From Fimbriimonas ginsengisoli (GTDB taxonomy: Bacteria; Armatimonadota; Fimbriimonadia; Fimbriimonadales; Fimbriimonadaceae): DNA of 64,000 nucleotides. Both the position numbers and the translations under genes were made by a program. Positions 7,487 through 24,192 of the stretch are shown one piece after another. The DNA is taken from NCBI GenBank assembly GCA_016179045.1, contig JACOSL010000031.1, forward strand, positions 1-64,000, written 5' to 3'. Each line of letters opens with the position of its first letter. Within the stretch, counting starts at the first letter, position 1. A model generated the notes under the pieces. That model was not told where the DNA came from. It made no database searches and saw nothing but the letters and a program-made list of their open reading frames with translations.

Positions 7487-9637
7487 CTAGCGACGCTGTC
7501 CGGCCAAGAGGATCTCCTTCGCCTTGGTGGGGTCGTCGGTAGGCAGGTCGCAAGCCCGATTCCGGCAGATATAAGCCGTGGCCTTGTCGGTCAAAGGGCG
7601 AAGCTCCTTCGTGTACGGAGCCAGTTCCGCCAGGGCCGAGGCGGAGGCGGGCGTCTTCAGGGCGAATACGGCCCTCGGCGCGTAGACTGAGCGCAGGGCG
7701 GCAAGCATGGGTTCGCCGCTGGTGGATGGGCTCGCGATCACGACCTCGTTTCCCGGGCCGTGAACGTAGTCGGCGGCGACGGCGAAGGTGGGAAAGGCGT
7801 GCAGAGCGCCACGGATTCGGGTGCCGAACGCGAGCACGGTTCGCCGGCCAAGCGACTCCAATTGAGGGTCACCGATCAGCCGACCAAGCCGAACCAGGTC
7901 CAGCGCGGCGACCGCGTTCCCGGATGGCAGAGCCGCGTCCTCCGCGGTCTTTGGCCTCGTCAGCGCGTACTTGTCGCCAGTAGGAGCCATGTAGAATCCG
8001 CCGGCGGCCTGGTCGGCGAGCGTGTCCTTCATGACGTTAGCAAGCCTCTTTGCCTCCGCGAGCCAAATCGGATCGAAGTCCGCCTGGTACAAATCGGTCA
8101 AGCCCCAAATTATAAAGGCGTAGTCGTCCAGCCCGCCGACGCCCGCCGATTTGCCACCCCGATACTGATGCAGGAGCTGACCGCTTGAGTCGGCGTTGCG
8201 CTTAAGGATGAATCCTGAAGCCTTTGCCGCCCTTGCCGTCCATCTCTCCTCGCCAAAGGCGGCCCCGGCCTGAGCGTAGGCAGCGATCATCAGCCCGTTC
8301 CAATCGGTGAGAACCTTATCGTCTGTCTGGGGAGGAACGCGCTTCACGCGCGCTGCCAACAACGCGCTTTGAACCCTGAGGAGCCGGGGATCGAGCAAAT
8401 CGACGTCGTCCGCGAGCCTCAAGATATTCGTAGACTCCTCGAAGTTTCCCCCCGGCGAAGTCCGAAAGGCCTGTCGCGCGAATTTGGCATCGGACTCGCC
8501 GAGGGCCTCGCTAAGCTGGCGCTCGGTCCACAGGTAGAACTTGCCTTCGGAGCCTTCGCTGTCCGCATCCTGAGCGCTCAGGAAGCCGCCCGCTGGGTCG
8601 GACATGTCTCGGTCCACATAGGTCAGGACCTCGTCCGCGATCCGCTTGTAAAACGGATTCTTCGTTGCTTGGTACGTCCCGACACAGGCCATGGCGAACA
8701 GCGCCTGATCGTAGAGCATCTTCTCGAAATGGGGCACCGTCCAAGTCGCGTCAGTCGAGTAGCGATGGATTCCGTAACCGACCTGGTCGTAAACGCCGCC
8801 GCGCCTGATCGCTCGGATGGTCTTCTCGACCGCCTTGAGATACTCGGCCTTGCCGGTGGCGTGCCAGGCTCTTAGAAGCATGGTGAGGTTCGTCGGCTGC
8901 GGGAACTTGGGCCGCGAGCCAAATCCCCCGTTTTGAGGATCGTATGCGAGCATGAGCCCGGCCGCCGCTTGGTCCACGTCGGCCAACGACAGGTCTCCGG
9001 GCGCGGAGGACTCGCTCGGCATCAAGACCTTACTCGTGATCTCAGCCGCGTTGTTTTCAAGCTCGGCGCGTTTTGTCTTCCAGAGTTCGGCGGCTCGCGT
9101 CAGAAGCTGGGTAAGAGCCTCCTTCGGGAAGTAGGTGCCGGCGAAAAACGGTTTGCGCTCTGGCGTCAGAAGCAGGGTCATTGGCCAGCCGCCGCTGCCG
9201 GTTAAGGCTTGGGTGACCTGCATATAGATGTGGTCCAGATCGGGTCTCTGCTCTCGGTCGATCTTGATTGCGATGAAGCTGTCGTTTAGAAGCTTGGCGA
9301 CCTCCTTGTCCTCAAAGGATTCTCGTTCCATGACGTGGCACCAATGGCACGTCGAATAGCCGATCGACAGAAAGATGGGCTTGTCCTCCCGCTTCGCGCG
9401 CTCGAGCGCCTCCTCGCCCCACGGGTACCAGTCAACGGGGTTGTGGGCATGCTGGAGCAGATACGGGCTCGTCTCGCTGATGAGATGGTTGGCCGGCTGT
9501 TGGAGCCTCGGCGACATTCCCACGGAGTTCGCTAAGCACTTTCTCGCGCATCCCGGCGCCACCAGCAGCGCGGCGAGAACGGCAAGTCCGACTCCCGCTG
9601 TTCGGTGCAGCGAATCCTTAGCGGCGAACACCCTCAT
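7487..9637 (-). CDS. DUF255 thioredoxin-fold protein (YyaL/SPATA20 family), exported
   Basis: 716 residues. The DUF255 thioredoxin-like domain begins at [29 protein letters not shown] and carries the redox motif CHWCHVM, followed by a long (alpha/alpha)6-type glycosidase-like barrel ([58 protein letters not shown]). Most homologues start at the DUF255 domain. Here about 45 residues precede it, with a hydrophobic stretch [13 protein letters not shown] that looks like a lipoprotein or signal peptide, so the protein is probably exported. Biochemical function of the family is not established. It neighbours further thiol-redox genes at 9.7-12.5 kb. Confidence 0.9.
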
Positions 9638-9722: not shown

Positions 9723-10091
9723 CTAAGGCAGATCGCAACATGGTTCTTCCCCCTCACCCGCGCTCCTGAATGCGGCGAACGCCTTCAGAGCCCACGTCTC
9801 GCCCACACAGCCGCCCATCGTCGAGGCCACCGCACAGATCTCCACAAGCTCCGCCTCGGAAGCGCCCACCTCCCGCGACTTCAACGCGTAATACTTCACG
9901 CAAGGCTCGCACCGGGCTGCGATCGACCAAAGCAGCGCCCCAAGCACCTTGACCTTGGCAGGAAGCGCCCCGTCCGAATATAGCGCCTTTCGGCGCATGC
10001 CCTGAATAGCGCCGGTCGTGCCGTGTGTTGCCCTTGCGAAGTCCGTGAAGTGCTCGTAAGCAGGTTCGATTCTCGTTAGTTGATCATTCAT
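9723..10091 (-). CDS. Carboxymuconolactone decarboxylase-family protein (AhpD-like, CxxC)
   Basis: 122 residues of the AhpD/CMD fold. ALYSDGALPAKVKVLGALLWSIAARCEPCVKYYALKSREVGASEAELVEI contains the redox pair CEPC followed by the usual aromatic/Ala helix. Such proteins act as disulfide reductants or peroxidase partners, while true decarboxylases lack the Cys pair. A CC pair near the C-terminus (EPCCDLP) is unusual. It lies 78 bp downstream of the anti-sigma gene in the same orientation, so it probably belongs to the sigma operon and fits a thiol-stress role. Confidence 0.85.
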   Translation of the reverse strand: MNDQLTRIEPAYEHFTDFARATHGTTGAIQGMRRKALYSDGALPAKVKVLGALLWSIAARCEPCVKYYALKSREVGASEAELVEICAVASTMGGCVGETWALKAFAAFRSAGEGEEPCCDLP

Positions 10092-10169: not shown

Positions 10170-10913
10170 TCAGATCGCGCTCAAGGCGACCCGCGCAAGC
10201 GTCATCAGGGACATCTGATCGGTCCGAGCCATCAACACGTACGCGGCGGGCCCTTTGCTCCAAGCGACGACGGAAACGCCTTTGCGCGAGCAGCAGAAGA
10301 AGTCCATCCCGGCCATCGAGACCTTGTTTCCCGGCTCGAAGGCGAGCTTCGAGGTCGGCATCTGGCAGAGGGCGACCAACTGCCCCTTCCACCGATAGCG
10401 GACGACGGCTACCGGCGTTCCGGCGAGGGGGCACTGACCGCATCCGGCCATTTCCGCGCCCGCTCCGCTAAGATTCGGCATGGCGATCGGGATGCCAACA
10501 GTGCGGGCAAGCCTCTCGGGGGTCGATTCCGGCATCGGCGTCAGGAGTTCGGATCGTTGGGCGACCTCGGCAAGCGGCATAGGCGCTTGGGCCGAGACAG
10601 GCTGAGGGTGGCTCATCGCCCATGCCAAGGCGATGGCGGCGACCGCGAACGCGGGCGCCCAGCGCCAAAGTGTGGGCTGCTTGGGTTGAGCCTCGATGGC
10701 ACTCCGCACGCCGTCCAGCAGCCCGGAAGGCGCTTGCAAGTCGGTTCGAAGGGCGACTTCGATCCTTGCCGTGTCGCGGCGGAGCGCCTCCGCACGGTCA
10801 CGGCACTCCGCGCATTTCTGCAAGTGGCTCACGACCGCCCGTTCGGCGGACAGATCGAGCTCGCCGACAACATGCAGCAGCATCAGTCGCTCTACTTCTC
10901 GGCAGGTCAACAT
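10170..10913 (-). CDS. Zinc-finger anti-sigma factor with Cys-rich extracytoplasmic domain
   Basis: 247 residues. The N-terminal zf-HC2-type ZAS domain (CREVERLMLLHVVGELDLSAE, HLQKCAEC) should bind the sigma factor. One transmembrane segment (about residues 85-103, WAPAFAVAAIALAWAM) follows, then a roughly 145-residue outer domain with Cys pairs in GCGQCPLAG and FFCCSRKG and a single Cys in LCQM. The outer domain matches no family I can name; its cysteines suggest a thiol, redox or metal sensor. Its ATG overlaps the sigma stop by 7 bp (ATGTTGA), giving translational coupling and roughly equimolar production, as is usual for such pairs. Confidence 0.88.
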   Translation of the reverse strand: MLTCREVERLMLLHVVGELDLSAERAVVSHLQKCAECRDRAEALRRDTARIEVALRTDLQAPSGLLDGVRSAIEAQPKQPTLWRWAPAFAVAAIALAWAMSHPQPVSAQAPMPLAEVAQRSELLTPMPESTPERLARTVGIPIAMPNLSGAGAEMAGCGQCPLAGTPVAVVRYRWKGQLVALCQMPTSKLAFEPGNKVSMAGMDFFCCSRKGVSVVAWSKGPAAYVLMARTDQMSLMTLARVALSAI

Positions 10914-11449
10914 TCGCGGGACTCCTCCGGGAGCTTGGCGCGCAACTCCTCTAGGCCACGTGAGATCCGATGAGCAGCGCTTTGCAAGGTCATTCCTCTG
11001 ATCTCGCCGATCTCCCTAAATGTGTAGCCGAGTACGAATCGTAGAATCACAAGGTGCCTTGTGTCGGGGCTAAGAGCTTCGAGCGCTGCCAGGACCGCCT
11101 TGCGCTCCATTCCGTCGAGGGTCTGCCGCTCGAAGTCGGCCGGGTCGGGAGTTTCGTTGTGCAGGCTCGTTTCCATCGTTCGCGCTCGCCGGCGGCCGTC
11201 GGACCAGTTCAGGCATACGTTCGTGCTCAACCGCAACAACCAGTTTCCGAACGGCCGCTCGGGATCGAATTTTCCGATCTGACGGAAGGCGCGAATAAGG
11301 CATTGTTGGCTCAGGTCTTCCGCGTCTTCGACGGTTCCGGCAAAGCGATAGGCGAGGCGGTAGACATGATGCCGATGCCGGTGCGCCAACTCCATGTACG
11401 CCTCTGTATCGCCGCCCCGCGCCCGCCGTGCCAGGTTTTCGTCTGTCAT
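10907..11449 (-). CDS. ECF-subfamily RNA polymerase sigma factor
   Basis: About 180 residues. The region 2 core (AYMELAHRHRHHVYRLAYRFAGTVEDAEDLSQQCLIRAFRQIGKFDPERPFGNWLLRLSTNVCLNW) and region 4 helix-turn-helix (LSPDTRHLVILRFVLGYTFREIGEIRGMTLQSAAHRISRGLEELRAKL) are complete, and region 3 is absent, as in ECF sigmas. ATG 11449 (MTDENLARRARGG) is preferred to the TTG seven codons upstream. It is followed by its anti-sigma gene, and an ECF-like promoter repeated as a mirror image lies 22 bp upstream, implying autoregulation. Confidence 0.93.
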   Translation of the reverse strand: MTDENLARRARGGDTEAYMELAHRHRHHVYRLAYRFAGTVEDAEDLSQQCLIRAFRQIGKFDPERPFGNWLLRLSTNVCLNWSDGRRRARTMETSLHNETPDPADFERQTLDGMERKAVLAALEALSPDTRHLVILRFVLGYTFREIGEIRGMTLQSAAHRISRGLEELRAKLPEESREC

Positions 11450-11471
11450 CCAGAAGAGTCGTTCACCCAAC

Positions 11472-11498
11472 CATACAGCGCCGGGCGGCCAGTTTTCC
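11472..11498 (-). promoter_or_regulatory. Putative ECF promoter for the sigma/anti-sigma operon
   Basis: On the minus strand GGAAAACTG (11498-11490), 9 bp, then CGCTGTATG (11480-11472). GGAAAA resembles the -35 of ECF promoters. The same two blocks occur in opposite orientation at 11519-11544. Confidence 0.65.
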
Positions 11499-11518
11499 CC
11501 TCGTTACCAACGACTTAT

Positions 11519-11544
11519 GGAAAACTGCGCGCGCACGCTGTATG
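11519..11544 (+). promoter_or_regulatory. Putative ECF promoter for the Cys-rich/thioredoxin genes
   Basis: GGAAAACTG (11519-11527), 8 bp, then CGCTGTATG (11536-11544), identical in both blocks to the divergent promoter of the sigma operon. It lies 58 bp before the start of the Cys-rich protein gene. Confidence 0.65.
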
Positions 11545-11602: not shown

Positions 11603-11971
11603 ATGAAACGATTCAGATTTGTCCTCCCTACCTCCCTTGTTGTCTTCGCCCTCGTCGGTGCATCGCTCGTGTTCGCATGGCAGGGCGATATGAAGATGAA
11701 GGACATGCGATCCGCAGCAGGGAAGAAGGCGGCGGCGGGCGTGGCTAAAGAGAAGGCCAGGCAAGTGAAGAAAGGCATGTACGGCTGCTGCCTCAAGCAT
11801 TCATGCGACTTCTGCGCCATGCACATGGGAAACTGCGAGTGCGGCGAGATGGCCACGATGGACCAGCCCGTGTGCAACGAGTGCAAGGGCGGCTGGGCTG
11901 CGGGCGATGGCAGGATCGCGGGCAAGAGCGCCGACGCCATCAAGACGATGCCACGCGGCATGAAGATGTAA
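11603..11971 (+). CDS. Secreted Cys-, Met- and His-rich protein, probably metal-binding
   Basis: 122 residues: signal peptide (MKRFRFVLPTSLVVFALVGASLVFA), a Met/Lys/Asp segment (GDMKMKDMRS), an Ala/Lys-rich linker, then eight cysteines in YGCC, HSCDFC, GNCEC and VCNEC with interspersed His and Met (CAMHMGNCECGEM), and a Met-rich tail. The pattern suggests a periplasmic metal (copper or zinc) or thiol buffer; this is inference, since I recognise no family. It is transcribed divergently from the ECF sigma operon from an identical promoter, making it a likely member of that regulon. Confidence 0.72.
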   Translation: MKRFRFVLPTSLVVFALVGASLVFAWQGDMKMKDMRSAAGKKAAAGVAKEKARQVKKGMYGCCLKHSCDFCAMHMGNCECGEMATMDQPVCNECKGGWAAGDGRIAGKSADAIKTMPRGMKM

Positions 11972-12056: not shown

Positions 12057-12497
12057 ATGAACAAGATGCTTTCGATCAAGATCGTAACACCGATCGCGGC
12101 TCTCGTCGCCTTTTCCCTTTATTCGGACGGCCAGAAGGCGCAACCTGCGCCGGCAAAGGGCTGGACCGCCAACCTCGCCAAGGCGCTGAAGGATGCCAAG
12201 AAGTCGCATAAGCTGGTCATGGTGGATTTCAACGCCACATGGTGCGGGCCTTGCAGGATGTATCAGACCGAGGTCTTTCCTACGGCCTCGTTCAAGCGGG
12301 AGACCAAGAACGTGGTGCTCGTCACCGTCGACGTCGACGCCCAGCGGGAGCTCGCCCTTAAGTACAAGGTGAGTTCGATCCCCGACATCCGGTTTCTCTC
12401 CCCAAATGGCAAGGAAGTCGGGCGGCTAATCGGCTACGGCGGGGAACAGCGCCTGATCGGCGAACTGGCCAAGGCGCGTCGCGCGGCCAAGCTGTAA
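12057..12497 (+). CDS. Secreted thioredoxin-family protein
   Basis: 146 residues: short hydrophobic N-terminal export segment (about residues 5-23), then a thioredoxin fold with DFNATWCGPCRMYQTEVF (active-site WCGPC), VDVDAQRELALKYKVSSIPDIRFLSPNGKEVGRLIG and the conserved cis-Pro in SIPDIRF. Predicted to act on disulfides outside the cytoplasmic membrane. It is 85 bp downstream of the Cys-rich protein in the same orientation and probably shares its transcript, so its substrate may be that protein. Confidence 0.9.
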   Translation: MNKMLSIKIVTPIAALVAFSLYSDGQKAQPAPAKGWTANLAKALKDAKKSHKLVMVDFNATWCGPCRMYQTEVFPTASFKRETKNVVLVTVDVDAQRELALKYKVSSIPDIRFLSPNGKEVGRLIGYGGEQRLIGELAKARRAAKL

Positions 12498-15375: not shown

Positions 15376-18300
15376 CTACTCCACCGGCGGTAGCAGAGCG
15401 GGATCGCGCCGCAGCACGTGCACATGGATCCAGCGCTGCAGATCGTCGACCAGCGTGTGCATGATCGGGATATCGAGCAGCGAGAGTACCGTTCCCACCG
15501 CAAGGCCTCCGATGATCACCGCCCCGAGCGGCTGATACGCATCGAGCCCCGTCTTGGGCGAGAAGGCCACCCCCGCCATCACGAAGATCGTGATCAGGGA
15601 GGTCATCAGGATCGGGCGCAGACGTTGCGGGCAAGCCTTGGCCACCGCCAGGTTGCGCGGCATGCCGCTTCGCCGGTAGCCGAGAATGAGGTCGATCAGC
15701 AGGATCGCGGTCACCACGTCCATGCCGCTGAGCACGATCACCCCCAGCAGCGACACGGTCGAGAACGCGAGGTGCATCAGCCAGAGCATGAAGAACACGC
15801 CGCTGAGTTCGAGAGGCAGGCTAACCACCATCTGCAGCGGCTGCAAGAAGCTTCCGAACTGGGCGACGAGAATCAGATACATCAGGCAGAGGGCGATCGC
15901 AAGGCCGGTTAGGATCAGGCGGAAGCTGTCGAGCATCTGGGTCATATCGCCGCGCGCCTCCAGGCCATAGCCGGCGGGCCAGTTCAGCTTGGCGAGCGAA
16001 CGCATCTGCACGTCCATCATCACGTCCATGCTGGGCCGCCCATCCTTGCGGTAGTAGCCGCCAAAGTTCACCGCCCGGCGAAGCTGGTCGTGCTCAATCG
16101 CGCTTGGGGCGAGGCGATGTTCTAGACTGGCCACCGCCCCCAGAGGAATCTGCCGCCCATCCGGGGCGGAGATGAAGAGGCCGTCTAAGTCCGCCTCGGC
16201 TCGCCGCTGATCCTCTCGGAAACGAATTTGGACGGTGGTGGGACGGCGGTTGGGCAGGCGGTAATACTCGGCCCCAAAGCCGCCGCGCAAGCCGTAGTAG
16301 GCTTGCTCCGCCACCATCGCCGGGTTCAGCCCAAGCGCGGCCGCCTTCGCCTCGTCCACCTTCACGGTCAGGGTCGGCTTCGTCATCTCCCAACTCAAGA
16401 AAGGCTGCGCGATGTCGGGCTTGCCGGTCTTGGGGCTTACAGCCTCCGTCTGGGCGATCTTCAGCACCTCGTGGCCGAGCCGGTCGATCTCGGCTAGGTC
16501 TCGACCATAGAGCACGAGCGAGACGGGCGCGAGCGAGGTGGCCATCACGTCGCTGCCCATCTCCTTAAGCTGAATCCGGCGTATCCCGGGGATTTCCTTC
16601 ATCGCGCGCCCGTGCATGCGGTCGAGAATCGTCCAGACGTCGGGTCGGCCGGTGTCTTTGTCGGAGAGGGTGATCATGCCGGAGACCGCGCTAACCTGGT
16701 TGGCCTGGTAGCCGGTGAAATACGCCCCGCCCGTGGTCATGCCGGGGCCGCCTTCCACGCCTAGCTCCAGACTGCCATCGCGAATCCAGCCCTGGCGCCC
16801 GCCTTCCTCGATCAGGATGCGTTCTAGCTTCTGCGTCGCCCCTTCGGTGGCCTTGAACGGCGTTCCCGGCTGCATCTCCATCACCAGGCTCGCCTGGCCG
16901 ACGTCGCCGAGCGGCATCATCTCCGAACCGATGAAGTAGTACAGCGTGAACCCAAGGATCACGGTGATGCCGATGCGCACAAAGTTAGCGAATCGGTGCC
17001 GCAGCATCCAAAGGATCAGGTGCTCGTAGCCCGCCTCAAGCCCCCGCAGCCAGCGTTCGAACGGATGAAGGAAGATGCGGCTGAACCACGTTGTAGGGCG
17101 CGTCTCGGGGTCGGTCATGAATCGCGAGCACAGCACTGCGGTAAGCGTCATCGAAACGATGTAACTCGCGACGAGGCCGAAGATGATTGGGAGCCCGAGA
17201 CCTACGAACATGAGTTGAGTCAGGCCGCCGCTCACCATAAGCGGAATGAGGGCGACGATCAGCACGATGGTGGCCGCGAGCACCGAGCGGCGCACCTCGC
17301 TTATGCCGTCGATGGTCGCGGTGCGCCGGTCTTTACCCATCCGCAAGTGGCGCTCGACCGCGTGGACGTCGATGATGGCGTCGTCGACAAGGCGCCCGAT
17401 GGCGATGAGGAGGCCGACCAGGGTGCTCGAATTCAGGCTGAGGTGGAACGGCACCATCGCCAGCAAGGCCATGGCAAGGGACACAGGAATGGCGGTGAGG
17501 GCGATGAGCGTGGCCCTCGGCTCGCCCAGGAAGAACAGCACGGCCAGGCCGGTGAGCAGGATCGCGGCGATCAGCTCGCTTTGCATGTTTCCGAACAAAA
17601 TCTGTACAAATCCACCGTTGTCGTATGCGACTTTGAGGTGGATGCCGGGATACTCGCGCTCCAGTTCGTGGGCGGTCTTCATGACCGCGTCGATGGTCAC
17701 CGGGGAGCTTGCATCGGGGTTTTGGAGCACGTTCACCACGATTCCGCGGTCGACCTGATCGCCGTGCAGGTGGTGGTAGGCGGAGCGGTCCTCGATGACG
17801 GTGTCCTTCACCTCGGCGATATCGCCAACCCTTACGATTCGGGTGCCATCGGACTTGACCGGCACGCGGGCGATGTCTTCCGCGCCACGCGCCAGGCTGT
17901 CGACCCGCAAGATGGGTTCGGATTTCTCGTTCGTGAGCAGGCCGGCGGGGCGAGCCGCGTTGTAGCGGTCGATCGCATCGCGCACTTCGAGGACGGATAG
18001 GCCCGCTGCGCGCAGCCGGTCGCGGTCGACGCGCACCTGCAACTGGCGGCGATGTCCACCAAAAGTTGCTACCGTGTACACGTTTTTATGCGCAGACTTG
18101 AACCGATTGATAAGTTCGTTGTCCGCCAGGTCGCGAAGTCGGGCGAGGTCCCAGCCTTTGTCGCTATCGCCGGTTAAGGCCAAAGACAATATGGGAAGGT
18201 TCAGCGGATCGACGCGCAATATCCAGCTTGGCTTTAGGTTGGCGCCGGTGGCGGGCAAGTCGGCCTGGACCACGCTCAAAAGGCTTTGCACCTCAGTTTG

Positions 18301-18645
18301 CGCCTTTTGCATGTCGGTGCCGAACGGGTATTCGAGCACCACCATGGAAAAGCCGTCCTGGCTTGTCGAGCGGATGTAGCGCACGTTGGGCACGTTCACC
18401 ATCCGCTGTTCGATCGGTGCTGAAAAGTAGGTCTCGACCTCCTCCGCGGATAGGCCGGGCGCCTCGGTGACGATGCCGAGCAAGGGGCTCTCAACGTACG
18501 GCATGAACCGGCGCGGCATGATGTAGCCGATCGCGATCCAGCCGAGCAGGAGCATTGCGAGGAAGAACGCGAGCACCCCCTGGGGGTGATCGACCGACCA
18601 CTGAACCAGGTTGAAGCCCTTGCCGCCCGGCTCGGCAACCCTCAT
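15376..18645 (-). CDS. RND heavy-metal efflux pump (CusA/CzcA family)
   Basis: 1089 residues, the normal RND size. First transmembrane helix at about residues 20-40 (PQGVLAFFLAMLLLGWIAIGY), a large periplasmic porter domain, helices 2-6 (LIAAILLTGLAVLFFLG, ATLIALTAIPVSLAMALLAM), a proton-relay-like helix GLLIAIGRLVDDAIIDVHAVER, then the repeat in the second half. It should be the proton-driven trimeric component exporting metal from periplasm or cytoplasm. ATG 18645 overlaps the adaptor's stop by 4 bp (ATGA). Metal specificity is inferred from the adaptor's metal-binding motifs and the copper-oxidase neighbours rather than from pump residues. Confidence 0.93.
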   Translation of the reverse strand: MRVAEPGGKGFNLVQWSVDHPQGVLAFFLAMLLLGWIAIGYIMPRRFMPYVESPLLGIVTEAPGLSAEEVETYFSAPIEQRMVNVPNVRYIRSTSQDGFSMVVLEYPFGTDMQKAQTEVQSLLSVVQADLPATGANLKPSWILRVDPLNLPILSLALTGDSDKGWDLARLRDLADNELINRFKSAHKNVYTVATFGGHRRQLQVRVDRDRLRAAGLSVLEVRDAIDRYNAARPAGLLTNEKSEPILRVDSLARGAEDIARVPVKSDGTRIVRVGDIAEVKDTVIEDRSAYHHLHGDQVDRGIVVNVLQNPDASSPVTIDAVMKTAHELEREYPGIHLKVAYDNGGFVQILFGNMQSELIAAILLTGLAVLFFLGEPRATLIALTAIPVSLAMALLAMVPFHLSLNSSTLVGLLIAIGRLVDDAIIDVHAVERHLRMGKDRRTATIDGISEVRRSVLAATIVLIVALIPLMVSGGLTQLMFVGLGLPIIFGLVASYIVSMTLTAVLCSRFMTDPETRPTTWFSRIFLHPFERWLRGLEAGYEHLILWMLRHRFANFVRIGITVILGFTLYYFIGSEMMPLGDVGQASLVMEMQPGTPFKATEGATQKLERILIEEGGRQGWIRDGSLELGVEGGPGMTTGGAYFTGYQANQVSAVSGMITLSDKDTGRPDVWTILDRMHGRAMKEIPGIRRIQLKEMGSDVMATSLAPVSLVLYGRDLAEIDRLGHEVLKIAQTEAVSPKTGKPDIAQPFLSWEMTKPTLTVKVDEAKAAALGLNPAMVAEQAYYGLRGGFGAEYYRLPNRRPTTVQIRFREDQRRAEADLDGLFISAPDGRQIPLGAVASLEHRLAPSAIEHDQLRRAVNFGGYYRKDGRPSMDVMMDVQMRSLAKLNWPAGYGLEARGDMTQMLDSFRLILTGLAIALCLMYLILVAQFGSFLQPLQMVVSLPLELSGVFFMLWLMHLAFSTVSLLGVIVLSGMDVVTAILLIDLILGYRRSGMPRNLAVAKACPQRLRPILMTSLITIFVMAGVAFSPKTGLDAYQPLGAVIIGGLAVGTVLSLLDIPIMHTLVDDLQRWIHVHVLRRDPALLPPVE

Positions 18646-20522
18646 GCCGCTTGCCTTTTGAGAGCCATGCCGCACTTGGGGCACGCGCCCGGGCGGTCAC
18701 CGACATAGCCGTCCATCGGGCACACCCAGCGCTCGCCCTTAGCAGTTGCTGAGAGCTCGACCTTTGGGCCGGGAAGTTGGCTTGCTTGATGCGGGTGGGG
18801 GGCGGTCGTCGCCTTGGGCTCGGCGGGCATAGGCATGGTATGGCCTTCATGGCCGGGAACGGTCTGACCCGGCTCGGCCAGACCCGCATCCTTGCCCGTT
18901 TCGCGCAGGGCGGAGCCCTCGACGAGGTCGTCTCCGCCTCCCGACACTACTTGGTCGCCAGCGTGAATGTCGCATTCGACCAATGCCTGATCGGCGTTGC
19001 TCGCAAGAACGCGCACGGGAACTCGGTGGGCGTGGATATGGCCGCCCCGGCTGCGCGGAATTAGGTCCATGCCGCAGATGGGGCACTTGCCGGGGCCAGG
19101 CTTGCTCACGCTCGGGTGCATCGTGCAAGTCCAATCGGTCTTGGCGTCGGCGCCCGCCTGGGCGAGCCACACGAACTTGCCCTGCTCGCCCTCGCGCACG
19201 GCGACAAGCGGCGCTACCAGGCCGTTCTTGGGTTCAGACAGGGGTACGGCAAGGCGGGCGAACATGCCCGGCTTGAGTCCGCTCGAGCCGGTCGGGACGA
19301 GAGCCTCGACCCGGAACGTGCGTGTGGCGGGATCGACGGTCGGGAACACGCTCGTAAGTCTTGCTTCGATGGCGGGTCCTTCGGAGAGGATTCGCACGGA
19401 GACCCCCAGGTGGGCGGTCGCGGAAAGCGCTTCGGGCAAATCGGCCTGCACGCGTAGGGCGTTGCCCGACTTCAGCCTTAGCACCACCTGGCCGATCTGC
19501 ACCGCGGTTCCCGGGCTGACCGACCGCTCGGCCACGACCCCGTCGCCAAGCGCCCGCAATTCGCGGAAGCCCGCGACCGCGTTTGCCTGCTGCTCTTGTG
19601 CGCGGGCGGCGCCCGCTTCATAGCGACCCTGGGCCGCCTCGCGGTGCACCTTGGTCACGTCCTGAGTCGCCTGATACTCTTGGGCTTGGGCCACGCGCAA
19701 CATCGCGGACGATTCTTGGATCATGTTCTTGGAGGCTTGGAGACGACGCTCGGCGGCGAGCGCGGCCTGCCGCGAGGACGAGAGTTGGCCTTGAGTGGAG
19801 GCTAACCGCCCCCTTGCCGCATCGCGCTCTCGGCGGGCGGCCTGGAACTCGTTGAGCGAGATCGCGCCCGCTTCGTAGAGCTTCTGCATTCGCGCCAGTT
19901 GTTTGTCCGCGTATTCGAGGTCGGCTTGCCGCTCGGCTAGGCTGCCTGTCGCGGTTTCCACGTCCGCCTTGGCCCTGGATAGGTCGATGCTCACCGCCTC
20001 ACTTTCGGCCTTGGAGCGATCGACGCCGGCGTATGCGCCGCTGACCGTAGCTTTGGCCGCCGCTTCGATCGCGCGGTGGTGGCCGATCGTGAGTTCGGCG
20101 GCGCGCGCCGCCTCCGCCTTCGCGAGGGCCATTTCCGACCCCGCCGCGGCGGCGGCAAGGGCGTCGGGCGCATCGAGCACGGCGAGCAGTTGCCCCGCTC
20201 GCACCCGGTCGCCGGGATAGACGAGGATGCGCTGAACTCGACCGGGAAGTCGGGCAACCACGTCTTCGTCGCCAAAGGCGGCGACGGTGGCGGGAAACGC
20301 GCGCTCGTCGGCGACGCTGCCCGTCTTGACGGCGGCGAGGGTGACCGGGGTTGCCCCGGCGGGTGCCCGCATAGTGGTCATGTCCATCGACTGCGCGTCT
20401 ACGAAACTCATCGAGCCGGGAGAACGCTGGGTGGCGACCACCCAGCGCACGAGGCCGAGGCTGACGCCCAGCAGGGCGAGGGTCAGCCAGTGTTTCTTAA
20501 GGAAGGTTATGGTTGTGTTCAT
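18642..20522 (-). CDS. RND periplasmic adaptor (CusB/HlyD family) with two heavy-metal-binding motifs
   Basis: 626 residues: N-terminal membrane anchor (HWLTLALLGVSLGLVRWVV), barrel-sandwich hybrid halves (VVARLPGRVQRILVYPGDRVRAGQLL and GDGVVAERSVSPGTAVQIGQVVLRL), a long coiled-coil hairpin between them, and a beta-barrel. Two heavy-metal-binding-domain motifs follow: TCTMHPSVSKPGPGKCPICG at about residues 464-485, and CPMDGYVGDRPGACPKCGM at the C-terminus. The first appears inserted within the membrane-proximal domain, between VAVREGEQGKFVWLAQAG and HAHRVPVRVLASNADQALVECDI. ATG 20522 is chosen because the anchor follows at once. It bridges the CusA-like pump and an outer-membrane channel. 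Confidence 0.92.
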   Translation of the reverse strand: MNTTITFLKKHWLTLALLGVSLGLVRWVVATQRSPGSMSFVDAQSMDMTTMRAPAGATPVTLAAVKTGSVADERAFPATVAAFGDEDVVARLPGRVQRILVYPGDRVRAGQLLAVLDAPDALAAAAAGSEMALAKAEAARAAELTIGHHRAIEAAAKATVSGAYAGVDRSKAESEAVSIDLSRAKADVETATGSLAERQADLEYADKQLARMQKLYEAGAISLNEFQAARRERDAARGRLASTQGQLSSSRQAALAAERRLQASKNMIQESSAMLRVAQAQEYQATQDVTKVHREAAQGRYEAGAARAQEQQANAVAGFRELRALGDGVVAERSVSPGTAVQIGQVVLRLKSGNALRVQADLPEALSATAHLGVSVRILSEGPAIEARLTSVFPTVDPATRTFRVEALVPTGSSGLKPGMFARLAVPLSEPKNGLVAPLVAVREGEQGKFVWLAQAGADAKTDWTCTMHPSVSKPGPGKCPICGMDLIPRSRGGHIHAHRVPVRVLASNADQALVECDIHAGDQVVSGGGDDLVEGSALRETGKDAGLAEPGQTVPGHEGHTMPMPAEPKATTAPHPHQASQLPGPKVELSATAKGERWVCPMDGYVGDRPGACPKCGMALKRQAA

Positions 20523-20562
20523 GGGCCTGATGGCAGCGGCGTCCCAGCCGAGCGGTGGCGGG

Positions 20563-21693
20563 TCATTTCGCCTCAAAGTCGAATGTGTAAGTCGAAGGAG
20601 GCATGTTTGTTGCGGTTACGACGAGGCTCAATCGCCACGGGCCGATCATGGTGAAGGTTGCCTTGACCGCATACTTGCCCTTGCCGATCTCTTGGACGGC
20701 GGGATGCGAGGTTCCCATGTCCATGCTTGTCATCGAGACCGAAGCTACGAACCGGACGCCGGTCACCGGCGCTCCACCTGGCGTCGTGATGATGATGGAT
20801 ATGTTGTTGTCGCCAACCGAAGCCTTGTCGAGCTTGGCTTCCACCTTGAGGGCCTTCGAGCCCACATCTGGCGCATCCGCCTCCGGCTTCACTCCCTCTT
20901 CGGTGAAATTCGCGTCGCTAAAGACCATGTCCATCGGGGCCATTTTCATGCCTTCCATGCCGGAGCCGCCGACCATCATGAGCAACATCATGCGGACCAT
21001 CGGTTCGAGTTTGCCAAAGCCCGTGCGAGTCTCCCAATCCTCATTGCCCGTCCAGGCGTAGGAGGCCTTCTCCTTGAGCTGAGGCAGGGATGCGGCAACG
21101 TGGCCCATCGCCGACATGTCCTGGCCATAAGTCGGCTGAGCGCGCGGGGGTTCTTGCTTGGGCGGTAGCTGCTTTGGAGGCTCGGGTTTGGCGGGTTCCG
21201 CCTTCGGAGCTTCGGGCTGAGCACTCAGCACCTTTTTTGGAGGCGACGGACCGGCGGGCCTTGAGCCGGTGATCTTGATCGTCTTCTTTGCCAGCTGCCA
21301 TGGCTTGTCTCCCCCGACGGTCATATCAAAGCTAACGGTGAATTTCGGGGCTTTACTGACGAGAGTGATCCGCCACGGCCCATCCATCTGGAACATGGGC
21401 CTCAGCGTGTAGTGCCCGGGCGACGTTTCCTTCACCAACGGGTGAGCGGTGCCCATGTCCATGCTCGTCATGCCGACGTTTGAGGTCAGCTTCAGGCCGG
21501 TAACCGGCTTTGAGGCTTCCATGAAGCGGACCTCAAACACGTTCTCGCCGGTCTTTGGCGCGGCGGGTTTGATGGAGGCCGATGCCTCTATCGTTCTGTC
21601 GGCGGCGGGGGCCGCAGCCTGCGGAAGCGCAAGCAGCGAGGCGGGGATTATCGCCGCCGCAAGTAGGATTGTTAATACATCTCTAGTTCTCAT
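20563..21693 (-). CDS. Exported protein with two YtkA/FixH-like domains
   Basis: 376 residues: signal peptide (LTILLAAAIIPASLLALPQAAA), a first YtkA-like immunoglobulin-type domain (GENVFEVRFM...NVGMTSMDMGTAHPLVK...GPWRITLVS), a Pro/Lys/Ala-rich linker (about residues 165-215), a Met-rich segment (GMEGMKMAPMDM), then a second, clearly paralogous domain (NNISIIITTPG...VSMTSMDMGTSHPAVQE...GPWRLSLVV). The MTSMDMGT(A/S)HP motif, repeated exactly, looks like a copper-binding Met/His loop as in FixH/CopC-type folds. ATG 21693 starts the signal peptide. Encoded between the outer-membrane protein and the adaptor of the efflux pump. Confidence 0.82.
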   Translation of the reverse strand: MRTRDVLTILLAAAIIPASLLALPQAAAPAADRTIEASASIKPAAPKTGENVFEVRFMEASKPVTGLKLTSNVGMTSMDMGTAHPLVKETSPGHYTLRPMFQMDGPWRITLVSKAPKFTVSFDMTVGGDKPWQLAKKTIKITGSRPAGPSPPKKVLSAQPEAPKAEPAKPEPPKQLPPKQEPPRAQPTYGQDMSAMGHVAASLPQLKEKASYAWTGNEDWETRTGFGKLEPMVRMMLLMMVGGSGMEGMKMAPMDMVFSDANFTEEGVKPEADAPDVGSKALKVEAKLDKASVGDNNISIIITTPGGAPVTGVRFVASVSMTSMDMGTSHPAVQEIGKGKYAVKATFTMIGPWRLSLVVTATNMPPSTYTFDFEAK

Positions 21694-21703
21694 GTCGATT
21701 TTC

Positions 21704-22921
21704 CTAATTGGGAATGTACTGGTGAAGCAGGTTGGTTGGGGAACGGCGCGGGCCAACGCTTTGATTGAAGGTGGAGCCGAAGTTGAAGGCAAGGCCGATC
21801 TGGAACACGGCTGAATCTCGCCGACCTTCAAAAGCATTCGCCATCACTTCGCTGCGATGCTCGTACCCGACTTGAGAGATGAAATCGAAGCCTTGGCCGA
21901 GGCTCTTGGCGTAGCTCAGCGCCACGCCGCAGGAATTGGCGTCCGAAATCTTCGAATAACGCTTGGCGCCCGCCGTCAACGCCCATTGAGAAGCGGGATG
22001 GCCAAACGGGCTGTAAAGCTTGCGCAGCGAAAGCGCAATGGCCTGCTGGTCAGCGCGGTAGGTGTCGTTGAGGGAGGAAAGCGCTGCGGTGTCGTTGCCA
22101 AATGTGGCCTGTCCAAGGAAGCGCAAGTCGAGCTTGTTCACCAGACCTGGCTGAAGATTGAGAATCCCGCCCGCGTAGATAACGTCTGAAGCGCCGCCTG
22201 CGCTCTGTTTGACTGCTCGATGCTCAAACCCGGCTCCAAACGAGGGCACTCTTTCGATCGTTTTAAGAGCAGGGTTGCCTTCGTATTGATAGCTGAGGCC
22301 AAATGAATTGAGCCCCGTGTCTCCTTCTCCGACACCTGCGCTGTCGATCTGATGCTGCGCGTGGACGTTCAAGAATTGACGAAGCCCACGGTTGATCACT
22401 AGGGCCGCGACGTTGCTATAGCGGTGCTCCTCGGCGTTCGCCCCGTCGGAGAACGGGTCGAGCACCGAAGTGAAGTCGACGAGATCATCCTCCCGGATCG
22501 TCGGGAATGCGACGATCTGGGCCGCGGGCGAGTTGGTTCTGCCCAGATACGCTTCGTAGCGAAGTTCTTGAAAGTCGGCGAAGGCCTGGTGCATGAAGAA
22601 TTGCTTGCCATGACCAACGTTCGATTCGTCGATCGTAAGTCCACCGAAGGTAAAGCTGCCAATTCCGCCGCGATAGAGCCGTTGTGCAGCGCCGAGACTC
22701 AGCGATGAATCGGCGAAGTTTATTTGGCTCCGGCTGCCAAGGCCCCGGCCGCCAAACAACCCGCCTCTTCCTATGTCGAGAGTTGAAAGGCCGGATCCCG
22801 CGATCTCGATCTGCGTCTGAATGCCCACGTCTTTGACCGGCGATTGTTGCGTCTGAGCGCCAGCTGCCGCCGTAAGGGCGCTCGCGGCCAAGATTCCGAT
22901 TCCCGTTATTGCCATTTTCAT
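21704..22921 (-). CDS. Exported beta-barrel-like outer-membrane protein
   Basis: 405 residues with a signal peptide (MKMAITGIGILAASALTAAAGAQ) and alternating polar/hydrophobic strands throughout (for example LDLRFLGQATFG, ALTAGAKRYSKI, FISQVGYEHRSEVM, SAVFQIGLAFNFGSTF), consistent with an outer-membrane barrel. I see no TolC-like helical hairpins, so it is probably not the usual efflux channel CusC; it could be a copper-resistance porin in the position CopB occupies elsewhere. Start ATG 22921 has a GAGGA ribosome site. The stop is 10 bp before the next gene, indicating co-translation. Confidence 0.75.
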   Translation of the reverse strand: MKMAITGIGILAASALTAAAGAQTQQSPVKDVGIQTQIEIAGSGLSTLDIGRGGLFGGRGLGSRSQINFADSSLSLGAAQRLYRGGIGSFTFGGLTIDESNVGHGKQFFMHQAFADFQELRYEAYLGRTNSPAAQIVAFPTIREDDLVDFTSVLDPFSDGANAEEHRYSNVAALVINRGLRQFLNVHAQHQIDSAGVGEGDTGLNSFGLSYQYEGNPALKTIERVPSFGAGFEHRAVKQSAGGASDVIYAGGILNLQPGLVNKLDLRFLGQATFGNDTAALSSLNDTYRADQQAIALSLRKLYSPFGHPASQWALTAGAKRYSKISDANSCGVALSYAKSLGQGFDFISQVGYEHRSEVMANAFEGRRDSAVFQIGLAFNFGSTFNQSVGPRRSPTNLLHQYIPN

Positions 22922-22938
22922 TTGTGTCCTCTTTGCCG

Positions 22939-24192
22939 CTACGAGCTGATCGCGATGACCTCTTCCCATTTGATGCCAGCCTCGCGAGCATCTTCGTACA
23001 TAAGCATCGTCATCATTCCGCCAGGATGCTGGCCGTTGTTAGTCGTTGCCAGGTCGCTGTGGTCGTGGAAGTGCCAAAAACCCGGATTGGTGCCTTGGAT
23101 GACGATGTCGCTGGTCGTTCCCGGAAAGATGGGAATCGTGTTCATCCTAACTGGGGAGGCGAGGGGCGAACCGTCCTGGCACACATGCCAGAAGTCGTGG
23201 CCGTGAAGGTGCATGAAATGCGGCATGAAGCCGCCGCCGATCAACCGCACGCGGATGTTTTCGCCGCGCCTTATCATCACCGGGTCGGTCATCGGATACG
23301 ATTTCCCGTTGATCATGAAGTAGTTCGGCGTGATCGGACGGGCTGTCCCCGTTCGAGCCGCCAGATAGGGCGGAATGTATCCGTCCTTCACTGCCTTGAC
23401 GAATTCATCCTTGTTCTTGAACCAGCCCATCATGCGGCCGTTCATCTCCCGCATCATGGAGGGGCTATGGTTCATTCGCTCCATCTGAACCCCCATCTCC
23501 ACCATTTCCGACATCATGTCCCGCACGAAATTGGTGTCGAGCTCACTCAGAATGAGCGTGTATTCGCGGGTGTACGGGAACGCCTGCTGCACGAGGTCGG
23601 GCCCGCTTGGCTCGACGATCAGGGAGCCGATCAGACCCGCCTGTTGATGCAGGGTGGTCATCACGTGGCAGTGGTAGAAGTGGGTTCCCGTAGGCTGAGC
23701 CTTCCAGAGATATCGAAACTCCTGGTCTGGGCCGACCGGCCACTGTGTGCCGAGGGGGACGCCGTCCATCTCCATCGGAAGCATGATTCCGTGCCAGTGG
23801 ATCGTGTGAAACTCCGGGCTGCTGTTCTTCAGGTTCACCTGAACCCAGTCCCCCTCCTTGACGCGAATTTCAGGGCCCGGATAGGTCTTGTTGAACAAAA
23901 ACATGTGTGCCTGCACGCCTGGCACGATCTCGTGGATGCCGATTGTCACGTCGATGTCGTAAACGTGGATCTTGTCGCCGGGCTTGGGGCGCTCGCGCGG
24001 CGGGAAGGTGGGCGCGGTTCCCCTGGGATCGAAGGCGGCGGGCCACGGTGTTGCAGGCTCGTCCATCGAGCCTTGAGTCCCTTGGGCAAGGGCACGGCCA
24101 ATCAGACCGGCGCTTAGGCCCATGCCGCCCAATTGCAACACTTGCCGCCTGGCAATCTTCGGCGCGCTTTCGCTCAAATCGTTCTTAGCCAT
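22939..24192 (-). CDS. Two-domain multicopper oxidase, Tat-exported
   Basis: 417 residues. A twin-arginine-like signal (RRQVLQLGGMGLSAGL) is followed by cupredoxin domains carrying HTIHWHG (129-135), HFYHCHVMTTLHQQAGLIG (171-189), HFMHLHGHDFW and a final WHFHDHSDLATTNNGQHPGGMM. Copper oxidases of this type oxidise Cu(I) or phenols and reduce oxygen. Unusually, the C-terminal motif, which normally reads HCH, has Asp for the type-1 copper Cys, whereas the first domain has Cys175, so the T1 site seems to sit in domain 1. It lies in a metal-efflux operon, which supports cuprous oxidase activity. Confidence 0.9.
   Translation of the reverse strand: MAKNDLSESAPKIARRQVLQLGGMGLSAGLIGRALAQGTQGSMDEPATPWPAAFDPRGTAPTFPPRERPKPGDKIHVYDIDVTIGIHEIVPGVQAHMFLFNKTYPGPEIRVKEGDWVQVNLKNSSPEFHTIHWHGIMLPMEMDGVPLGTQWPVGPDQEFRYLWKAQPTGTHFYHCHVMTTLHQQAGLIGSLIVEPSGPDLVQQAFPYTREYTLILSELDTNFVRDMMSEMVEMGVQMERMNHSPSMMREMNGRMMGWFKNKDEFVKAVKDGYIPPYLAARTGTARPITPNYFMINGKSYPMTDPVMIRRGENIRVRLIGGGFMPHFMHLHGHDFWHVCQDGSPLASPVRMNTIPIFPGTTSDIVIQGTNPGFWHFHDHSDLATTNNGQHPGGMMTMLMYEDAREAGIKWEEVIAISS

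Follow-up and report, generated by a model that had tools for sequence, protein, structure and literature searches.

The window analysed here, a 64,000-nucleotide stretch of Fimbriimonas ginsengisoli (contig JACOSL010000031.1), carries the same two 9-mers in both directions between the divergent genes of an ECF sigma factor and a secreted Cys-rich protein, which raises the question of whether these blocks are promoters through which the sigma factor controls both its own operon and its neighbour.

Paired blocks in the divergent gap

The two elements and the sigma/anti-sigma genes lie as follows:

11498-11472, minus strand: promoter-like element of the sigma operon, -35 block GGAAAACTG, 9-bp spacer, -10 block CGCTGTATG
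11519-11544, plus strand: promoter-like element of the Cys-rich gene, -35 block GGAAAACTG, 8-bp spacer, -10 block CGCTGTATG
10907-11449, minus strand: ECF sigma factor of 180 aa with sigma2 and sigma4 (Pfam Sigma70_r2 1.4e-15, Sigma70_r4_2 4.4e-11)
10170-10913, minus strand: membrane anti-sigma factor with an N-terminal ZAS/zf-HC2 domain (Pfam zf-HC2 5.2e-5), one predicted TM helix and a Cys-containing C-terminal domain

As the original prediction had it, the blocks are exactly identical on the two strands, with spacers of 9 and 8 bp, the full sites reading GGAAAACTGGCCGCCCGGCGCTGTATG on the minus strand and GGAAAACTGCGCGCGCACGCTGTATG on the plus strand. The start codons of the ECF gene (ATG 11449) and the Cys-rich gene (ATG 11603) are separated by 153 bp; both sites fall wholly inside this gap, where they stand back to back, 20 bp apart, with arms that form perfect inverted repeats centred about 11508. 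The TGTA of each -10 block is 29 bp from the ECF ATG and 64 bp from the Cys-rich ATG, respectively. An alternative ECF start, the TTG at 11470, was replaced by the ATG at 11449, which matches the starts of relatives and is most likely the true one. No sigma70-type promoter was found in this gap. Exact paired blocks are not expected by chance (0 in 100 dinucleotide shuffles of the window), and six inverted 9-mers were observed in the gap, at least four being present in about 5% of random sequences. Because lone inverted 9-mers are not rare in so short a GC-rich stretch, weight is placed on the co-linear pair, its spacing, its genome-wide uniqueness and its conservation.

The sigma factor and its membrane anti-sigma factor

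The sigma factor has the organization of group IV, with sigma2 and sigma4 only, a short linker and a length of 180 aa, and its best sequence matches in the PDB are SigE (9m9e) and SigW (5wuq). The cognate anti-sigma gene, which encodes the zf-HC2 protein, is adjacent, as is also typical of this group, and overlaps the end of the sigma gene. The anti-sigma factor carries the HxxxCxxC-type N-terminal motif of ZAS proteins as HLQKCAEC, scores above the zf-HC2 cut-off, and its family profile matches RsiW (1e-6) and ChrR. In the AF2 model (pLDDT 82), the extracytoplasmic domain is predicted at fair confidence and includes a C-terminal sheet. The similarity of this domain to RseB/MucB is weak (Foldseek probability 1.0, E 4e-3, TM up to about 0.3) and makes a sensor role plausible. 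The same C-terminal domain without the ZAS part is seen in membrane proteins of relatives (L068 4669-5253; L069 4481-5742), and in L069 it occurs twice in tandem.

Uniqueness and conservation of the motif

Within the genome assembly that was scanned (2,268,096 bp, 66 contigs, 92.7% complete), the exact block pair with a spacer of 6-11 bp occurs in only these two places. Allowing up to 3 mismatches in 18 positions at a spacer of 9 or 8 bp still returns only these two sites of the incomplete 2.27-Mb assembly, and the reversed-pattern control at the same spacers gives 2 and 0 matches. The original prediction had proposed such a scan for copies ahead of thiol or metal genes; both window sites were matched, but no further targets emerged from the 2.27-Mb assembly, and the neighbouring efflux cluster at 15376-24192 holds no copy of the motif.

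In a set of 113 genomes from the order, an orthologous sigma factor (49% identity) together with a full-length anti-sigma factor is encoded only by G026 and G004. When a motif built solely on the window (both 9-mers, scored by matching positions, with spacers of 8-10 bp) was used to scan the two orthologous loci, L067 and L066, the expected intergenic sites were among the best matches in both, and in register. In L067 (G004), the ECF gene (49% identical) again diverges from that of a 122-aa secreted Cys-rich protein, so that the architecture of ECF, anti-sigma and divergent Cys-rich genes is kept. The sigma-side site there (+4483) reads AGAAAGTTG-N9-CGGTGTATA (13/18), with its TGTA 32 bp from the ECF start, and the site before the Cys-rich gene (-4418) reads AGAAGATTC-N9-TCCTGTATG (12/18, tied with several others). 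L066, whose ECF is also 49% identical, has one site (-6784), AGAAAAATG-N9-GGCTGTAAT (13/18), which precedes an operon of a secreted Cys-containing 192-aa protein, thioredoxin-like as judged by eye only, followed by the ECF and anti-sigma genes.

A contig scan with the sigma factor as query returned only distant ECFs, and the motif is missing from most of 27 less closely related ECFs of the phylum. The clear exception is L102 (found as L075), the closest of the 27 (ECF 41% identical) and the one with the strongest upstream match: it shares the 17-mer GCCGCCCGGCGCTGTAT with the window sigma promoter, its TGTA lies 25 bp before the ECF start, and the -10 block and spacer are kept before the ECF gene while the -35 block is poorly kept. 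Its anti-sigma factor has the same C-terminal domain as that of the window, and the sigma pair is followed downstream by an RND pump and an MFP-like gene. In this comparison of three or four orthologous loci, the joint score over four regions, 50, was reached by none of 2000 Markov sets (maximum 48) and by 2 of the 2000 motif permutations; taken singly, the matches in L102 and on the Cys side of L067 are weak (P about 0.06-0.09). The 1-bp difference between the two window spacers also counts against a shared promoter role. Conservation in L067, L066 and L102 supports the prediction that the adjacent sigma factor, an ECF, uses the blocks as its promoters, and, at the level of sequence, the presence of the motif before both the sigma operon and its target, conserved in orthologues, is what autoregulation would predict.

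The secreted Cys-rich protein and other neighbours

Four further genes flank the sigma/anti-sigma pair:

11603-11971, plus strand: secreted protein, Cys-rich and 122 aa long, no known family, proposed metal binder, probably of copper, and main effector
12057-12497, plus strand: secreted thioredoxin-like protein (CGPC; Pfam Thioredoxin 6.1e-18), possibly co-transcribed with the Cys-rich gene
9723-10091, minus strand: AhpD-like carboxymuconolactone-decarboxylase-family protein (Pfam CMD 1.2e-11), possibly in the sigma operon (same strand, 78-bp gap)
7487-9637, minus strand: DUF255/DsbH-type thioredoxin-domain protein (Pfam Thioredox_DsbH 1.6e-72), possibly in the sigma operon (same strand, 85-bp gap)

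The Cys-rich protein matched no Pfam or NCBIfam family and is present in 11 of the 113 genomes of the order. Its domain keeps CC, CxxC, CxC, CxEC, W and GxG invariant in the spacing CC-x4-CxxC-x6-CxC-x10-CxEC, and eight of the invariant columns are Cys. A fold search with its model (pLDDT only 72) gave no match, and PDB matches of its profile to the adenovirus receptor were dismissed, as they lie for the most part in the N-terminal region, where conservation is poor. Most relatives of the protein occur without this sigma factor and motif, so the pairing of the two is not obligatory, and scanning for the motif near the other homologues (L056-L065) turned up no convincing site. In L057 and L058, the homologues adjoin unrelated ECF sigma genes (27-33% identity) that are without the motif. 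In L062-L065, the Cys-rich domain, often duplicated, is N-terminal in secreted proteins of 550-640 aa (a possible barrel) beside YtkA-like genes. The L063 protein, in which the domain is fused to a larger one and which no Pfam family covers, is encoded in a row with YHS, YtkA, CsoR-like and Cu-ATPase genes. In the window, the gap between the Cys-rich and thioredoxin genes is 85 bp; no strong intrinsic terminator was found in it, and inter-gene hairpins are not stronger than in shuffles.

The cluster at 15376-24192 on the minus strand, 4 kb from the sigma locus, encodes an RND permease, an HMBD-containing CusB-type fusion protein, a YtkA/FixH protein and a multicopper oxidase, and is likely to serve copper/silver export and oxidation. 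This cluster and the recurrence of the Cys-rich domain in cop operons make copper/silver or thiol stress the likely signal, the case for metal being circumstantial. The genome itself (G000) also encodes two P-type ATPases, and no HMA (heavy-metal-associated) domain was found in its 2.27-Mb assembly.

Proposed circuit and alternative explanations

Taken from sequence, the locus is most probably an ECF sigma switch that activates its own operon, has a very small local regulon and two back-to-back promoters, and responds to a thiophilic-metal or thiol-oxidation signal. At rest, by analogy with ZAS proteins of the RsiW/ChrR type, the membrane anti-sigma factor would hold the sigma factor, which would be freed once a surplus of thiophilic metal, copper or silver most likely, or thiol oxidation is sensed by the Cys-containing domain outside the cytoplasm. 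The freed sigma factor would then direct RNA polymerase to the two near-identical promoters (-35 GGAAAACTG, -10 CTGTATG), one of which would amplify the sigma and anti-sigma factors, and perhaps the AhpD-like and DUF255 proteins, in positive autoregulation, while the other would drive production of the secreted Cys-rich protein, probably along with thioredoxin, so that metal would be bound and thiols would stay reduced. A narrower version, in which one divergon would form the entire direct regulon, for an undescribed secreted family of Cys-rich metal-sequestering proteins, with metal sensed by the Cys-containing RseB-like domain of the anti-sigma factor, is possible and is offered tentatively.

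The same circuit might instead answer to general oxidative or thiol stress rather than metal, as the thioredoxin, DUF255 and AhpD-like neighbours and the Cys residues of the sensor domain would allow; the link of the Cys-rich family to cop operons and the RND pump and MFP-like gene beside the L102 sigma gene speak against this, and we regard it as somewhat unlikely. The reader of the sites could also be a different ECF sigma factor, with the local sigma operon downstream in a cascade, since the motif does not by itself reveal which sigma factor recognises it and the genome (G000) encodes 21 proteins with sigma70 region 2, among them others that might in principle act at these sites. The 2.27-Mb assembly, however, holds no other copy, so that no second autoregulated sigma gene carries the motif there, and the motif travels with orthologues of the local sigma factor, which makes such a cascade very improbable.

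Two further readings deny the blocks a promoter role. The perfect symmetry around about 11508 and the divergent gap, the usual place of an operator, would suit one large palindromic operator bound by a dimeric repressor or activator, but the separation of the sites is 20 bp in the window and 64 bp in L067, a lack of conservation that disfavours a single palindrome, and both L066 and L102 carry one site only, before the sigma-containing operon. With no other regulator gene at the locus, an operator of this kind appears very improbable. Some inverted 9-mers do arise randomly in 153 bp of such composition, yet a recent local duplication or functionless chance symmetry would hardly place two co-linear 9-mers at near-equal spacing and in register across other genera and families of the phylum, and is scarcely credible. 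The autoregulated switch with its two promoters is therefore preferred.

Comparison with known systems

The gigPABT/rpoQ-rsqA divergon of Cupriavidus metallidurans likewise sets an ECF sigma factor and its membrane anti-sigma factor divergent from the operon of a small periplasmic Cys-containing protein, and is induced by copper and gold (PMC10304878). There, rpoQ is reported to be RpoD-dependent, with control of gig by RpoQ presumed and unproven (PMC10304878), whereas at the window locus one motif would serve both sides; the neighbouring proteins are also different, GigA and GigB (DUF2063) there and the thioredoxin, AhpD-like and DUF255 proteins in the window. The copper-responsive SigAb of Acinetobacter likewise works with anti-sigma proteins, regulates its own expression and has very few direct targets (three, including relA and the small RNA sabS), but its anti-sigma proteins are different and no divergent arrangement with the gene of a Cys-rich protein is described for it (PMC12153292). 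In bufferin systems, too, sigma/anti-sigma genes accompany those of Cys-rich precursors (PMC12452194); the Cys-rich protein has no DUF2282 Pfam match, and no DUF692 (MNIO) gene is present among the flanking genes tested. Given the resemblance to gig/rpoQ-rsqA and SigAb, and with autoregulation predicted for about 55% of known ECFs (PMC8103513), the type of circuit is known and the general understanding of ECF regulation is unchanged, while the protein families at the locus are uncharacterised. What the locus adds is a sigma factor paired with its likely promoters on comparative evidence, in a lineage where literature searches returned no ECF promoter study, a pointer to a Cys-rich protein family that has no name and is associated with copper genes, and, in its private two-promoter regulon, a candidate orthogonal switch.

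CorE-type ECFs sense copper through a Cys-rich C-terminal domain of their own, without an anti-sigma factor. The copper-dependent representative of Myxococcus (PMC3107203) is another copper-responsive ECF, of a type described as anti-sigma-independent (PMC12153292), and its Cys-rich C-terminal extension is absent from the window sigma factor, which ends LRAKLPEESREC.

SigW and RsiW of Bacillus subtilis are similar in sequence to both proteins of the window pair, SigW being among the top homologues, and RsiW is likewise a ZAS anti-sigma factor with one TM helix. RsiW is not known to have a Cys-containing extracytoplasmic domain. The -35 element of SigW is ATTGAAACCTTT, a box with GAAAC (PMC8103513), and the window -35 block resembles that of SigW-class ECFs. 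The SigW regulon is large and concerned with envelope stress, whereas that of the window sigma factor would be tiny and local.
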